A DNA stretch of 64,000 nt from contig JAQVKM010000005.1 of NCBI GenBank assembly GCA_028694645.1, positions 1-64,000 on the forward strand. Reading direction: 5' to 3'. This DNA is from Bacilli bacterium. Its GTDB lineage: Bacteria > Bacillota_I > Bacilli_A > RF39 > UBA660. Made by a program: the position numbers and the translations under genes. Below are positions 30,453 through 37,263 of this stretch, piece after piece (the stretch's first letter is position 1; every line of letters begins with the position of its first letter). Below the pieces are notes generated by a model. That model made no database searches. It was not told the origin of the DNA and saw only the letters and a program-made list of their open reading frames with translations.

Positions 30453-30986
30453 TTATTTTTCTATATAATTTTCATTTATATCATCTATATCTTTTAATTC
30501 TTCTTCATCCAATTCATCATCAACATCTTCCCAAGGTTCTTCTTCTTCTTCAATTGAAATTTTCATTTTAGTTTCACCAACTATTTCTACTCCTAATTCT
30601 TTTTCAATATCGAAATTTATGTTCCCGTCTTTATCAATATTAACTTGAGTACAGTTTGGTTGTTTTAAAGTTCTAACTATTATTTCAGTATCACTAGACA
30701 AATCAGCATTTTCTTTGATTTTTACATTAAATAGGTCGTTATAGTCTATTTTTTTATTAACTACTGTTGTTTTAGAATCATTTTCATATGAATACCATAT
30801 ATTTACATCATATGACCCATCAACACCTATTTTTTCTTTTGATTTATATCCTTTAAATTTATGATTTATCACCCAACATCCTAGAACCGTTGTAGGTATA
30901 TTTTCTGTGGTAATTACATAACTATTTTTAAAATATTTTTTACCTTTACCTATAACTGCTTTGGTTACAATTTCTTTAAAAGCCAC
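30453..30986 (-). CDS. cotE: Outer spore coat morphogenetic protein CotE
   Basis: CotE builds the outer coat layer around the developing spore in the mother cell. The product is 177 residues (B. subtilis CotE is 181). Conserved segments are FKEIVTKAVIGKGKK, VLGCWVINHKFKGYK, YDVNIWYSYENDSKT, VRTLKQPNC and EVVGETKMKI (here VEIVGETKMK), followed by the typical acidic C-terminus (EEEEEPWEDVDDELDEEEL). I choose the GTG at 30986, because AGGGGTG is ideally spaced; an in-frame start 15 nt upstream is possible. cotE follows oapA, but a terminator and a sigma-K-like promoter lie between them. Confidence 0.95.
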   Translation of the reverse strand: MAFKEIVTKAVIGKGKKYFKNSYVITTENIPTTVLGCWVINHKFKGYKSKEKIGVDGSYDVNIWYSYENDSKTTVVNKKIDYNDLFNVKIKENADLSSDTEIIVRTLKQPNCTQVNIDKDGNINFDIEKELGVEIVGETKMKISIEEEEEPWEDVDDELDEEELKDIDDINENYIEK

Positions 30987-31003
30987 TATATCACCCCTCA
31001 CTT

Positions 31004-31033: not shown

Positions 31034-31062
31034 CAAAAAAAGTAGTTTTTTACTACTTTTTA
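31034..31062 (-). terminator. oapA terminator
   Basis: AAAGTAGT-AAAAA-ACTACTTT followed by T on the minus strand; the 5' arm overlaps the oapA stop codon. It separates oapA from cotE. Confidence 0.75.
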
Positions 31063-31637
31063 ATTTTATAAAAATGAGATATAATTTTAGCAAATTCATA
31101 TAAAATATAATTGCTTTTGTTTACAGCAAAACTTTTTCCCAAAGCTTTACCACCTATTGTTAAAGATGAAACTAATGCTGTTACAGTTAAAATAACTATA
31201 AATTTATTTAAATCTAAATTTTGTGCTAAATCAACTGCAATAATAGACGCGGCCGTACCAGATATAATTCCACATATGTCTCCAACAACATCATTACAAA
31301 AAGAAGATACTTTATCCGCATTTTTCTTAAATTTTACAGCTATATCTGCACCTTTTATTTTTCTAGAGTTCATAGAGTGAAAAGGTTTTTCATCAGCAGA
31401 TTGAACCGAAACTCCAATTATATCAAATAATATACCCACTAAAATAAATATTATTAATATTATTATACCAATTACAACATTAACATTAGGTATTATCATT
31501 TCTGATAAAAATGAAAATACAAAAGATATTGCAAATGCTAAAATAATAATTTTAATAATCCATTTTTGATCTACAAATTGTATTTTTTTTCTTTTAAGTT
31601 CTTTGTTTATACTTTTTTTCTCGTCTTTTTTTTTCAT
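31053..31637 (-). CDS. oapA: OLE RNA-associated membrane protein OapA
   Basis: OapA is the membrane protein that binds OLE RNA and anchors it at the membrane. In alkaliphilic bacilli the complex affects tolerance to alcohol, cold and magnesium stress. The product is 194 residues: a basic N-terminus (1-25), helices at about 27-47 and 52-76, a hydrophilic loop with SADEKPFHSMNSRKIKGADIAV, NADKVSSFCNDVVGDICGI, then helices with LTIGGKALGKSFAV near the C-terminus. These blocks are what I recall as diagnostic of OapA, and the ending resembles DUF21/CorC-type membrane domains. GGAGAT precedes the ATG. The OLE RNA gene lies immediately upstream. Confidence 0.88.
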   Translation of the reverse strand: MKKKDEKKSINKELKRKKIQFVDQKWIIKIIILAFAISFVFSFLSEMIIPNVNVVIGIIILIIFILVGILFDIIGVSVQSADEKPFHSMNSRKIKGADIAVKFKKNADKVSSFCNDVVGDICGIISGTAASIIAVDLAQNLDLNKFIVILTVTALVSSLTIGGKALGKSFAVNKSNYILYEFAKIISHFYKIKK

Positions 31638-31645
31638 AATATCTC

Positions 31646-31670
31646 CAAAAAAAAGGAATATTTATTCCTA
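31646..31670 (-). terminator. Terminator between OLE RNA and oapA
   Basis: AGGAAT-AAAT-ATTCCT followed by eight T residues on the minus strand. The T run ends 1 nt before the oapA GGAGAT site, so OLE transcripts would largely end here and oapA would be made from read-through. Confidence 0.7.
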
Positions 31671-32269
31671 ATTATTAATTAAATGGCATTTAAATTGATA
31701 AACTTTACGCCTTAAGGTCAAGTAGGTTTTCCCTCATTTCTACAGTGCGTTACCACACTTGCAGTTCCCTTTTAAAGAAATGAATATATTGTTACCAAAT
31801 ATATGACTTGATTACCACTGAGTACGTACTGCAATCCCAATTTAATTACACCCTAGGAGATTTCCCCACCAACAATTTATTATTAATTCTTTTTTGCAAA
31901 AATGGTTTCAAAAAGCAATAACGATATTAAATTGGCCAAAATAATATTGTCTGTCATTTATCCCATCATTTTCACGCAAGACAAGCTACACTACTCGTAA
32001 GTTTCCCCACATAGTAGGTTTAATCCTAAGTCGTCACAAGTCCATCAACATAAAGTGTATAGGCTTATAACAAGGTTAGGTCTCAGCGAATATTGGGTCA
32101 ATTATCGTATGCCATTACGGTTGCCCAATTATTCATTCATCCAGCACTCACCCCAAACTGGGCGTAAGAAGCAAGCACAAGAAGCTTCACAGATATGCTC
32201 TTGAGTGGTAGTTTAACCCCACCTTCATAATAAATTTAATTGACTAGAATAATGTGCCATCAATTAATT
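31671..32269 (-). ncRNA. ole: OLE RNA (ornate large extremophilic RNA)
   Basis: This is a ~600-nt non-coding segment, visibly richer in G and C than its surroundings and free of plausible reading frames. It lies directly upstream of oapA, the position and size expected of OLE RNA (~610 nt). The ends are complementary: ATTAATT..ATGGCA at 32268-32255 pairs with TGCCAT..AATTAAT at 31688-31674, closing the molecule. Inside are unusual G-rich single-strand-like blocks, GGTGGGGTTAAACTACC (near 32222) and two copies of a (G/T)GTGGGGAAA motif (near 32012 and 31868). It starts about 7 nt after a consensus promoter and ends at a terminator. It lacks RNase P, tmRNA and 6S hallmarks. A covariance-model search with the Rfam OLE model would decide. 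Confidence 0.85.
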
Positions 32270-32275
32270 GTTATA

Positions 32276-32304
32276 AATATACTATAAAATAAGGGTTTTG
32301 TCAA
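32276..32304 (-). promoter_or_regulatory. OLE RNA promoter
   Basis: TTGACA (32304-32299), a 17-nt spacer and TATATT (32281-32276) form a strong sigma-A-type promoter. The predicted start near 32269 coincides with the 5' arm of the closing helix. The 17-nt block ACAAAACCCTTATTTTA is shared with the cotE promoter. Confidence 0.85.
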
Positions 32305-32328: not shown

Positions 32329-32631
32329 TTATTTCCTTTTAAACCAGTATTTTATTAAATAAATTTCTAATGCAACAAAGCAAATTACTAAACCAATTGC
32401 TAATATATTATAAAATAATCCATCTGTATAATTAGCTAGCACACCAAGTAAAGATGTTGGAATATATTTATTAATCAAATTAGTTATTTCAGTTACATTT
32501 ATATTTTCACTTATAAAATGCATAATTCTAAAAAAAATTTCAGATATTCCTAAAAAATAAACAAAACTTTCAAAATTCTTTTTCCAAATTAAAATAATTA
32601 CTGATAATACTACTATAATAATTAAATCCAT
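32329..32631 (-). CDS. Unrecognised 100-residue membrane protein upstream of OLE RNA
   Basis: The product has about three hydrophobic segments (about 2-15, 22-40 and 72-94) and a basic C-terminal end (KYWFKRK). No family recognised. GAGGTG lies 7 nt before the ATG. It ends 25 nt before the OLE promoter with no clear terminator between, so partial read-through into OLE is possible. Position beside an RNA-membrane complex is suggestive only. Confidence 0.6.
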   Translation of the reverse strand: MDLIIIVVLSVIILIWKKNFESFVYFLGISEIFFRIMHFISENINVTEITNLINKYIPTSLLGVLANYTDGLFYNILAIGLVICFVALEIYLIKYWFKRK

Positions 32632-33673: not shown

Positions 33674-33699
33674 GAAAAAAGTATTGCTTATCAATACTT
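33674..33699 (-). terminator. Terminator of the giant prepilin gene
   Basis: AAGTATTG-ATAAG-CAATACTT followed by T6 on the minus strand, adjoining the stop codon. Confidence 0.75.
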
Positions 33700-36600
33700 A
33701 TGTTCCTAAATATGTTATTTTAGCATATCCATCTCCTGAATTACCAGTTGCATTTTTAGTTCCATCAGAAGATGTCATATAAGATGGGCTTGATGCTATT
33801 GAGGTAGTCCATTGATAACCATCACCATCTATCATAACAGTATTTGTAAATTTGTAATTTGTCCAAGAATAAGAGTCACTTATTGTTGATGCAGTGGTAT
33901 TTTTTATTGTTCCGTCAGCATTTACTCCAATACATCCAAAATGTCCAGAAATATATGAAGAACCACCAGTAGTTACACCACCAGCATAAGCTCCACCGGC
34001 TCCACCATACCAGCCTGCTCCGCCACCATTTGATGCCCAATTAGCATTAACAAAACCAGCTCCACCAGTGCCAAATATACCAGCTCCTCCAGGATTTGCT
34101 GTTCCACTTATCCCGCCGGCAATTTGTCCCGCTGGGGTTTGTGATTTATATGTTAAAGTATTAGATCCACCTGTACCATATTTTCCAAGCAAACCACCCC
34201 CAGATCCACCAGATGTGGCCCAAGTAGCAGTATCATAAATAGATGCTCCAGCTCCGCCAGCTGCAACAATAATTCTGGAACGCAAACTTGCAACATTATT
34301 CCAAGCTCCACTTACAGTTCTAACATCAGTAGCGCCACCTCCAGCTCCACCAGCTGCCCCATTACCGGCTCCGCCGCCATTATAACCGCCAGTTATTAAC
34401 ATCGCTTTACCACCTACATAAACATATAAAGTTGTATTAGCTGTTAAATAGATTTCACCTTTTGTATAAGCTCCTAAACCACCTGTAAATGTAGTATTTT
34501 TAGTAGTTCCTTGAGCCCCCCATAATTCAATTTTATAATTTCCACTATGTGGAGCAGTGAAAACTTGATAATTTCCATTATATCCATATGCCCATGTATT
34601 TTCATTTGCATATCTTGTATTTGTATAATTTGTTATAGTTTCTTCTTTAACTAATGTTATTCTAGCATATCCAGAATTTCCATTACCTGCAGATGAACCA
34701 CTTGTTAATTTGTTTGGTTGATTAATTTGATTTTCTTTTGTTGTTGTCCAATTATATCCATCACCATCAATCATTTTAGTGTTAGTAAATATATAGCCTG
34801 TCCATGAATATGCACTTCCTGTATGATTTCCAGATGAATCAATTGAATCGACTCCTAAATGTCCTGAAATATATGAAGAACCACCAGTAGTTACACCCCC
34901 AGCGTGAGCTGCACCAGCTCCTCCATACCAGCCAGCGCCTCCACCACCAGAAGACCAGCCGGCATTAACAAAACCAGCCCCTCCAATACCAAAAGTTCCT
35001 GCAACCCCTGGACTTGTTGTATTACTTACTCCTCCAGAAGCTATTCCTGCTTCTCTAAGTGATATATATGCTAAGGCACTAGATCCACCTGTACCATATT
35101 TTCCAAGCAATCCACCACCGGCACCACCAGTTGCAGCCCAAGTAGCTGTATCATAAATAGAGGACCCAGAACCACCACCGGCAACCATAATCCTCGATCT
35201 TAAACTATTTGTTTCATTCCAAACAGAACTTGAAGATGTGCTAACTGTTCTAATATCAGTAGCGCCTCCACCGCCTCGCCCAGTTGCATAACCAGCTCCT
35301 CCACCATTCCAACCGGCAACGGGAGAATATGTCGTTCCTCCAACATAAACATATAAGGTTGTATTAGCTGTTAAATAGATTTCACCGGTTGTATATCCAC
35401 CTAGACCACCAAGATATTGACCATTTGACCCTCCTTGAGCACCCCATAATTCAAATTTATATGTTCCATTTTTTGGAGCGGTAAATATTTGATAATTGCC
35501 ACTAAAATCATAAGCCCATGTTTTATTATTGTTATTTATTTCTTCAGTTTGCATCGCCTCAGATTTATAACTAGGAGTAGATAAACTTATCTTAGCATAT
35601 CCATTAGCTGAATTACCAGAAACATATCCTGATGCATTTTTGGCAGGCATTAAAATATTTGTTCCTCTAAATGTTGTCCATTCATATCCTTCTCCATCAA
35701 CCATTTTAGTATTTGTAAAATAATATCCTGTCCACGAATATGCACTTCCTGTATTAATCCCAGCTGAATTAATTGAACTACATCCTAAATGTCCAGAAAT
35801 ATAAGAAGAACCTCCAGTAATTGAACTACCAGCATATGACATTCCAGCACCACCATACCAGCCAGAACCGCCTCCACCAGCAGACCATGTTGATTGATAT
35901 CCAGTTCCACCCATTCCAAAACTACCATTAGTTCCAAAAGTTTGAATGTCATTTGCTTTACCACCACCAGATTGTGTAGCGGCTGTTGCCTTATAAGCTA
36001 TTGCGTTAGCTCCGGCTATTCCATATAACCCTTGAAGCCCACCACCAGCTGCTCCATAACTATACCAAGATGTTGTTTCATAAACAGAAGCCCCAGAACC
36101 TCCAGCTGCAACCATAATTCTTGATCTTAAACTGTTCGCATCATTCCAAACAGTAGCAGTTGCATTATTAACTGTTCTAACATCAGTAGCTCCTCCGCCA
36201 CCTCTAGCATTTCCGAACCCTGTTCCACCGCCATTCCAACCACCAGTTACTGTTGTAGGTTGTTGTCCAACATAAACATATAGTTTTTCTCCTTGATCTA
36301 AATATACTTCACCTTTAGTATATGCTCCTAAACCTCCTGTATATGTAGTGTTAACACTTCCTCCTTGAGCACCCCATAATTCAACTTTATACATCCCACT
36401 ATATGGTGCTGTAAAAGTTTGATAAGAACCTGTATAATCATATTCCCAAACAAGAGATGAATTAGAAAATTCACTTAATTGAACCCAAGTATCTGTATTA
36501 TAAACATACGATTCTTTTGGTTGCCATGTTCCATCTACATATTGCATTACACATGAAACACCAATTTTACTTTTATCATTTTTTATATATTTATCAGATG

Positions 36601-37225
36601 TACTATTTTGTACGATCCAAATATCTCCTTCATCTGGAGAAGTAATTCCTTCATTTGACACATAATAATTATTTATTTTAGTAGTATTTATAACTCCAAC
36701 ATATCCTTCATTAGAAGTAGCTGGCAATTCATCTACGGTTGTATATGCTTGAACATTTAGTCTTAATCCAATATAATTAGCAGCACCTGTTGTAATATAT
36801 CCATTAAAACTTTCATCAAAATCTTCAGTACATTTTCCTTCTGCTGTATTAATATCTGTACTAAGTAAAGTTTTAGTTGCATAATGTTCTCCATTATCAA
36901 TACATAAAGCAACTTTCCCATCACTTGTAAGTCTTACAAATCCATTTTTAACAGAACCTTTATATGTTAATTTACCATTAGAATCAGTTTGAACTCCATC
37001 TTTAATGGTAAAACTTAAATAGCTTTCTATATCATCCATATTTTTTGCATAAAACAAATTAGTTGTTTCTAATAATCCTTGAGCACTACTTCTTAATGCA
37101 TTAATTTTTACACTATCAATTATATTAATTACAATAGGAATAGTTACTAATGCAATAACAGCTAAAACAACTAGTATTCCAAGTAATTCCACTAAAGTAA
37201 ATCCCTTTTTATTATTTTTATACAT
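33698..37225 (-). CDS. Giant prepilin-like protein with three ALK/LTK-type glycine-rich modules
   Basis: The product is 1175 residues from the ATG at 37225, which GGAGG marks; an upstream ATG would add seven. It starts KKGFTLVELLGILVV (G^F site, Glu +5, membrane helix). A pilin body with two cysteines follows to about residue 140, then a linker with IWIVQNSTSDKY. From about 260 come three ~290-residue repeats, each with TFTAP..G.YK.ELWGAQGG, GGLGAYTKGEIYL, YVYVGG, GGGGATD(V/I)RTV, LRSRI(M/I)VAAGG, GGGLLGKYG, GGSSYISGHLG and a closing Y(A/T)(K/R)I. This is the pattern of the glycine-rich domain of ALK/LTK receptors (Gly_rich family). Gene has its own strong promoter and terminator. A pilus-tip adhesin or filament role is inference. 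Confidence 0.9.
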   Translation of the reverse strand: MYKNNKKGFTLVELLGILVVLAVIALVTIPIVINIIDSVKINALRSSAQGLLETTNLFYAKNMDDIESYLSFTIKDGVQTDSNGKLTYKGSVKNGFVRLTSDGKVALCIDNGEHYATKTLLSTDINTAEGKCTEDFDESFNGYITTGAANYIGLRLNVQAYTTVDELPATSNEGYVGVINTTKINNYYVSNEGITSPDEGDIWIVQNSTSDKYIKNDKSKIGVSCVMQYVDGTWQPKESYVYNTDTWVQLSEFSNSSLVWEYDYTGSYQTFTAPYSGMYKVELWGAQGGSVNTTYTGGLGAYTKGEVYLDQGEKLYVYVGQQPTTVTGGWNGGGTGFGNARGGGGATDVRTVNNATATVWNDANSLRSRIMVAAGGSGASVYETTSWYSYGAAGGGLQGLYGIAGANAIAYKATAATQSGGGKANDIQTFGTNGSFGMGGTGYQSTWSAGGGGSGWYGGAGMSYAGSSITGGSSYISGHLGCSSINSAGINTGSAYSWTGYYFTNTKMVDGEGYEWTTFRGTNILMPAKNASGYVSGNSANGYAKISLSTPSYKSEAMQTEEINNNNKTWAYDFSGNYQIFTAPKNGTYKFELWGAQGGSNGQYLGGLGGYTTGEIYLTANTTLYVYVGGTTYSPVAGWNGGGAGYATGRGGGGATDIRTVSTSSSSVWNETNSLRSRIMVAGGGSGSSIYDTATWAATGGAGGGLLGKYGTGGSSALAYISLREAGIASGGVSNTTSPGVAGTFGIGGAGFVNAGWSSGGGGAGWYGGAGAAHAGGVTTGGSSYISGHLGVDSIDSSGNHTGSAYSWTGYIFTNTKMIDGDGYNWTTTKENQINQPNKLTSGSSAGNGNSGYARITLVKEETITNYTNTRYANENTWAYGYNGNYQVFTAPHSGNYKIELWGAQGTTKNTTFTGGLGAYTKGEIYLTANTTLYVYVGGKAMLITGGYNGGGAGNGAAGGAGGGATDVRTVSGAWNNVASLRSRIIVAAGGAGASIYDTATWATSGGSGGGLLGKYGTGGSNTLTYKSQTPAGQIAGGISGTANPGGAGIFGTGGAGFVNANWASNGGGAGWYGGAGGAYAGGVTTGGSSYISGHFGCIGVNADGTIKNTTASTISDSYSWTNYKFTNTVMIDGDGYQWTTSIASSPSYMTSSDGTKNATGNSGDGYAKITYLGT
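33701..36448 (-). repeat. Three tandem protein-coding repeats (glycine-rich modules)
   Basis: Approximate module limits are 35579-36448, 34649-35518 and 33701-34597 (first to third in the protein). DNA similarity is clear but imperfect, so the copies are old or diverging. Modules 2 and 3 are more like each other (shared GGLLGKYGTGGS and FGxGGAGFVNAxW) than like module 1. Confidence 0.9.
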
Positions 37226-37263
37226 AAATTCCTCCATATAGTTCATCTATTATTAATATAATA

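Follow-up and report, generated by a model that had tools for sequence, protein, structure and literature searches.

Full-length OLE RNA with its partner OapA beside cotE in an uncultured member of the Bacilli, and apparent transfer of the pair among relatives

The window (the whole 64,000-nucleotide stretch of DNA analysed here) carries a genuine full-length OLE RNA gene, ole, with its own housekeeping-type promoter, followed by oapA, which encodes the membrane-protein partner of this RNA. The copy is intact and unremarkable within an RNA class that is known but still unexplained. OLE is one of the largest conserved RNAs of bacteria for which no biochemical function is known. Our main reading, to which we give a probability of about 75%, is that this genuine pair would form a membrane ribonucleoprotein (RNP) in vegetative cells with a role in metal or stress physiology, and that it would be a mobile unit to which the neighbouring cotE gene is incidental. 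A wider proposal, which we hold to be slightly better than an even bet, is that across the order ole-oapA is a cassette that moves as a whole from one genus to another and exists as two co-evolving types of which one has shrunk to 378 nt, the cassette serving growing cells without sporulation, OapB or OapC, and not replaced by MpfA where it has been lost. The source genome comes from an order of Bacilli that are uncultured and have small genomes, probably the clade that papers on OLE call RF39. Its named relatives are metagenome-assembled genomes, mostly from animal gut.

The ole-oapA locus

The Rfam OLE model (RF01071) matches the minus strand at 31667..32276 over all 616 of its positions (model 1-616; 368.2 bits, E 1.4e-104, cmscan of the window), far above its gathering score of 50 bits, which bears out the earlier suggestion, made in a sequence-only reading, that a structured RNA of about 600 nt in this region is OLE. 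It is the single match in the 1.22-Mb draft genome (92.5% complete), where a second OLE is absent. The RNA is of the full-length type and possesses all elements including P5-P8 and a long P9, and its dimer contact elements are recognisable as motifs, that is, the A-rich loop L4, the L5 and L6 sequence motifs and the palindromic UGGCCA apical loop of P9.

The consensus promoter that the same reading had placed before the RNA is indeed there, as a sigma-A-type TTGACA-17-TATATT (32276..32304, minus strand) with 11 of 12 consensus positions, which stops where the OLE model starts. Because the -10 box overlaps the first ~16 nt of the model, the ole transcript probably starts near 32269. Nearly every OLE of the order has such a housekeeping-type promoter of its own in about the same place, 11 or all 12 of the consensus positions being matched at 71% of 92 loci versus 0.6% of mononucleotide shuffles. 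On the 3' side of ole, sequence reading and a script point to a candidate weak intrinsic terminator (minus strand, approximately 31648..31669), composed of the hairpin AGGAATAAATATTCCT and then TTTTTTTG, which was missed by a stricter scan because it has two G-C pairs only. Terminators between ole and oapA occur at 21 of 80 loci in the order, against 0.35 expected from mononucleotide shuffles.

On the minus strand the order is p100, ole, the weak hairpin, the GGAG ribosome site of oapA immediately after it, oapA itself and cotE. The p100 gene (32329..32631, minus strand) encodes a 100-aa membrane protein, oapA (31053..31637, minus strand) starts 29 nt after the OLE match and encodes 194 aa, and cotE (30453..31001, minus strand) encodes an outer spore coat protein (PF10628, E 1.4e-51), as had been recognised from the sequence. 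Both cotE and p100 were judged to lie outside the OLE system. Elsewhere in the window, the minus strand encodes (33698-37246) a 1182-aa protein that has an N-terminal methylation motif of pilin type and three glycine-rich repeats of ALK/LTK type (PF12810).

The locus shares with the OLE (RF01071) and OapA of Halalkalibacterium halodurans and Clostridium the same full-length model match, an oapA directly downstream and a CNNM-like OapA fold. It differs from them in that ole has its own promoter and a candidate terminator before oapA, and in its neighbour, which is cotE and not isoprenoid/exonuclease genes. It also contrasts with OLE variant 2, which comes from RF39-type gut bacteria, probably of the same order, and is devoid of P7 and P8 (PMC11332333).

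OapA, other partners and a possible mechanism

The 194-aa protein matches nothing in Pfam or NCBIfam. Its identification as OapA stands, since it belongs to one alignable family with the ORFs downstream of OLE: an HMM started from the window protein finds OapA downstream of, beside or near OLE at 94 of 95 loci. Invariant residues of the family include D72, G75, D116, G119, D120, G127, T160, K164 and K168, and the family has relatives among named Clostridia, for example Papillibacter and Oscillibacter. With a profile of 34 sequences, OapA is found in 95 of 146 genomes of the order, and OLE likewise in 95, plus one in which it is cut at a contig end, and the two co-occur in all but one OLE genome. 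Presence differs in two genomes, G129 and G065. The former was rejected as a case of OapA without OLE, the contig end being what cuts its OLE, while the latter (locus L081) has a full-length OLE and OapA went undetected within 7 kb or elsewhere in the genome. In most loci oapA lies within 200 bp of ole. At about a dozen (L058, L062 and L064 among them) the distance is greater, up to 4 kb and in some with genes between, so that ole and oapA need not share a transcript. A second oapA fragment in G107, which comprises the last 40 aa (38 identical to that genome's own OapA) and lies near a contig end, is probably an assembly product.

An AlphaFold model of the window protein (pLDDT 91) has as its best PDB matches in Foldseek MtCorB and CorC, which are CNNM Mg2+ transporters. 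CNNM/CorC chains make up six of the best seven matches (probability 0.91-1.00), and the predicted fold resembles the membrane domain of these transporters, although the E-values (1e-3 to 1.2) are marginal. Pfam CNNM gives weak matches to OapA in many relatives, and a sequence search of the PDB with the OapA profile gave no match. We infer that OapA may act in transport. The model agrees with the published relation between OapA and MpfA (PMC11332333). However, while MpfA/CorC/CorB Mg2+ exporters of the CNNM family have a fold like that of the OapA model, OapA with its 194 aa has no room for the CBS and CorC_HlyC domains that MpfA has, and no match to either appeared. MpfA-like proteins were found in just nine of the 146 genomes, five of which have OLE, and MpfA is therefore no replacement for OLE in this order; as a substitute for a lost OLE it was rejected, 46 of 50 OLE-less genomes being also without MpfA (Fisher p 0.49).

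Unlike the H. halodurans RNP, the system comes with no detectable OapC and no visible OapB. The sequence-only reading had proposed looking for both elsewhere in the genome. The search for OapC came up empty, with no L7Ae-family protein (PF01248) in any of 22 genomes (our own and 21 relatives), whereas controls were positive. As for OapB, none was seen among the two KOW proteins of our own genome, which read as L24 and NusG from sequence and size; with 92.5% completeness of the genome, an OapB could be missed. Absence of both from the RF39 clade has likewise been reported (PMC11332333). These absences, together with the reduced genomes, are what one would expect if OLE were a relic that no longer works without OapB and OapC. 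We regard this as highly improbable, in view of a full-length structure scoring 368 bits, an oapA that is intact at almost every OLE locus, promoters that are conserved, and complete pairs that have apparently been re-acquired in small genomes.

The mechanism that we favour for a working pair would run as follows. The ole gene would be transcribed from its own housekeeping promoter in vegetative cells, and the RNA would dimerise through its loops and be held at the membrane by OapA, giving a membrane RNP, as suggested by published studies of OLE in H. halodurans and Clostridium and by the conserved gene pairing. This OLE-OapA complex may tune divalent-metal (Mg2+) export or sensing, and stress tolerance; the fold of OapA and the Mg2+ sensitivity that OLE mutants reportedly show in H. 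halodurans both point to a metal role. The weak hairpin and T-run may end most ole transcripts, limited read-through yielding more RNA than protein, and the complex would do without OapB and OapC in this lineage. Finally, ole-oapA would be a self-contained unit (promoter, RNA and protein) that can be inserted, as presumably beside cotE, and lost or exchanged between species.

Sporulation genes and the cotE neighbourhood

The adjacent and co-directional cotE had been taken as a hint that OLE and OapA might serve sporulation or the spore envelope, in a genome thought to be sporulation-capable. At the gene level the latter is correct, SpoIVA, Spo0A, CotE and SpoIIR all being present in our own genome. 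In addition, OLE correlates with sporulation genes across Bacillota, from which a spore role has been proposed, and modest, unpublished spore defects in H. halodurans have been mentioned (both in PMC11332333). Distribution within the order nevertheless led us to reject a sporulation role derived from the cotE context. Nine genomes are devoid of SpoIVA, CotE and SpoIIR (G001, G008, G023, G024, G045, G049, G060, G064 and G090, SpoIIR having been searched in 28 chosen genomes), with Spo0A also absent or low-scoring in all except G064, and the OLE-OapA pair persists in eight of these nine. In three of them (G008, G023 and G064) the pair has been kept while the spore genes are gone, and congeners have spore genes. 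Conversely, SpoIVA is present in 48 of 50 OLE-less genomes, and OLE occurs in 18 of 20 genomes without SpoIVA versus 78 of 126 with it (Fisher p 0.02, uncorrected for kinship), so that its distribution, with the same proviso on kinship, runs if anything opposite to a spore role. The housekeeping type of the ole promoter speaks against such a role too. It is quite unlikely, in our view, that the pair serves spores, and retention of ole-oapA after spore-gene loss argues that spores are not the reason why it is kept in this order.

The neighbourhood itself is lineage-specific. Only five of 95 OLE loci have cotE within 7 kb, and it is immediately adjoining in the window alone: in three genomes of genus g63, which are the nearest relatives in the RpoB tree, cotE is convergent and ~1 kb past oapA, and in another relative (G043) it lies ~3 kb upstream of OLE. 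Since relatives without sporulation genes keep ole-oapA, the cotE neighbour is no evidence of a spore role; most likely it is incidental to the pair. How it came to be there may be read from G043, in which a p100 homologue directly precedes cotE, at 70 bp. As ole-oapA lies between these two genes in the window, the pair was probably inserted there, which is what this one relative suggests. At 60 other cotE loci p100 was never found beside cotE, and with two loci only it was rejected as a conserved partner of either OLE or cotE. Flanking genes of OLE are in general mostly genus-specific, at least one being common to 63 of 70 same-genus pairs versus 492 of 4395 other pairs.

Two types of the pair, their apparent transfer and the shortest OLE

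The OapA tree splits (support 99/97) into one clade that goes with full-length OLE (534-617 nt) and another that goes with short OLE (378-541 nt), and the OLE RNA tree gives a matching split (100/100). The short type accounts for 31 of 95 OLE loci, 29 with RNAs of 480-541 nt and two with RNAs of 378-381 nt. Its OapA, unlike that of the full-length type to which the window belongs, does not have a basic tail at the N terminus (net charge +1.5 versus +6.7). Both types occur in each of two genera, g42 and g22. The RpoB tree unites each of them (100/100 and 90/92, respectively), whereas AU tests reject a single clade both for OapA (p 2e-6 for g42, 1e-27 for g22) and for OLE RNA (p 8e-5 and 4e-55), these p-values being inflated since the groups were chosen after tree inspection. 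RpoB on the one hand and OapA and OLE RNA on the other are in conflict in both genera, which indicates that ole and oapA have been transferred or replaced together.

Genomes G143 (locus L098) and G109 (locus L100) have a short-type ole-oapA, the other sampled members of their genera having full-length ones. Both nest in the g23/g61 branch, with OLE identity to g23 of 77-82% versus 68-70% for RpoB. G109 is 92% identical in RpoB to its congener G054, yet 37% in OapA and 54% in OLE, while the corresponding values against G024 are 68%, 62% and 82%. The short OLE contig of G109 (23.7 kb) makes misbinning possible in this genome. In G143, where the OLE contig is 236 kb long and has typA 8 kb off, 77-82% identical to g22/g47 orthologues, misbinning is unlikely; as typA of its congeners is close downstream of oapA, the pair seems to have been replaced within one and the same region. 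A few relatives appear to have obtained ole-oapA from other genera.

Two deep clades supported in both trees might also stem from an ancient duplication, with differential loss, not transfer, behind the conflict, and deep paralogy of this kind could mimic part of it. As an account of the two types, we find this unlikely: nearly all sampled genomes are single-copy, G109 and G143 are closer to g23 in OLE than ancient paralogues should be, and G026 and G034 are 91% identical in OapA versus 85% in RpoB, a reversal that no other compared genomes show and a third apparent case of transfer. The second OLE of G376, an apparent two-copy genome, lies on a 4.8-kb contig similar to a different genus and is probably contamination; beyond it, second matches were seen in G158 and G314.

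Transfer of the pair remains our preferred reading. Compared with published OLE work, the matching ole and oapA types, the movement of the pair as a unit and the 378-381-nt form are apparently new, unit transfer and the ultra-short OLE being the apparent additions of this comparison. Shortening comes in degrees. The 480-nt OLE of G043 keeps P5 and P6, with P7, P8 and most of P9 gone (cmscan), and in two genomes of different genera, G026 (378 nt, L124:7001-7378) and G034 (381 nt, L125:7001-7381), P5-P8 and most of P9 are gone, the A-rich loop L4 and the 3' part of the model being kept together with a short P9 bearing a palindromic UGAUCA loop. An intact oapA follows 4 nt downstream in both. Published OLE variants 1 and 2 do not include this form. 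Set against the cryo-EM OLE dimer that we used as reference for contacts (PMC12286853), the 378-381-nt RNAs are without the L5, L6 and L7 contacts, and L4 and possibly a P9 kissing loop remain. In full-length OLEs with a parsed P9, this loop is often a palindrome of varying sequence (UGGCCA, UAGCUA, AGGCCU), as expected for a self-kissing loop; these loops come from a loose palindrome test, a strict one having missed most, and a sizeable minority went unparsed by the script. Single-strand folding of the ultra-short OLE was uninformative (z -1.1). The short forms and the apparent transfers single out the RNA plus OapA as a minimal set for reconstitution or heterologous tests. A further genome in the genus of G034 (G233) has a similarly weak OLE score.
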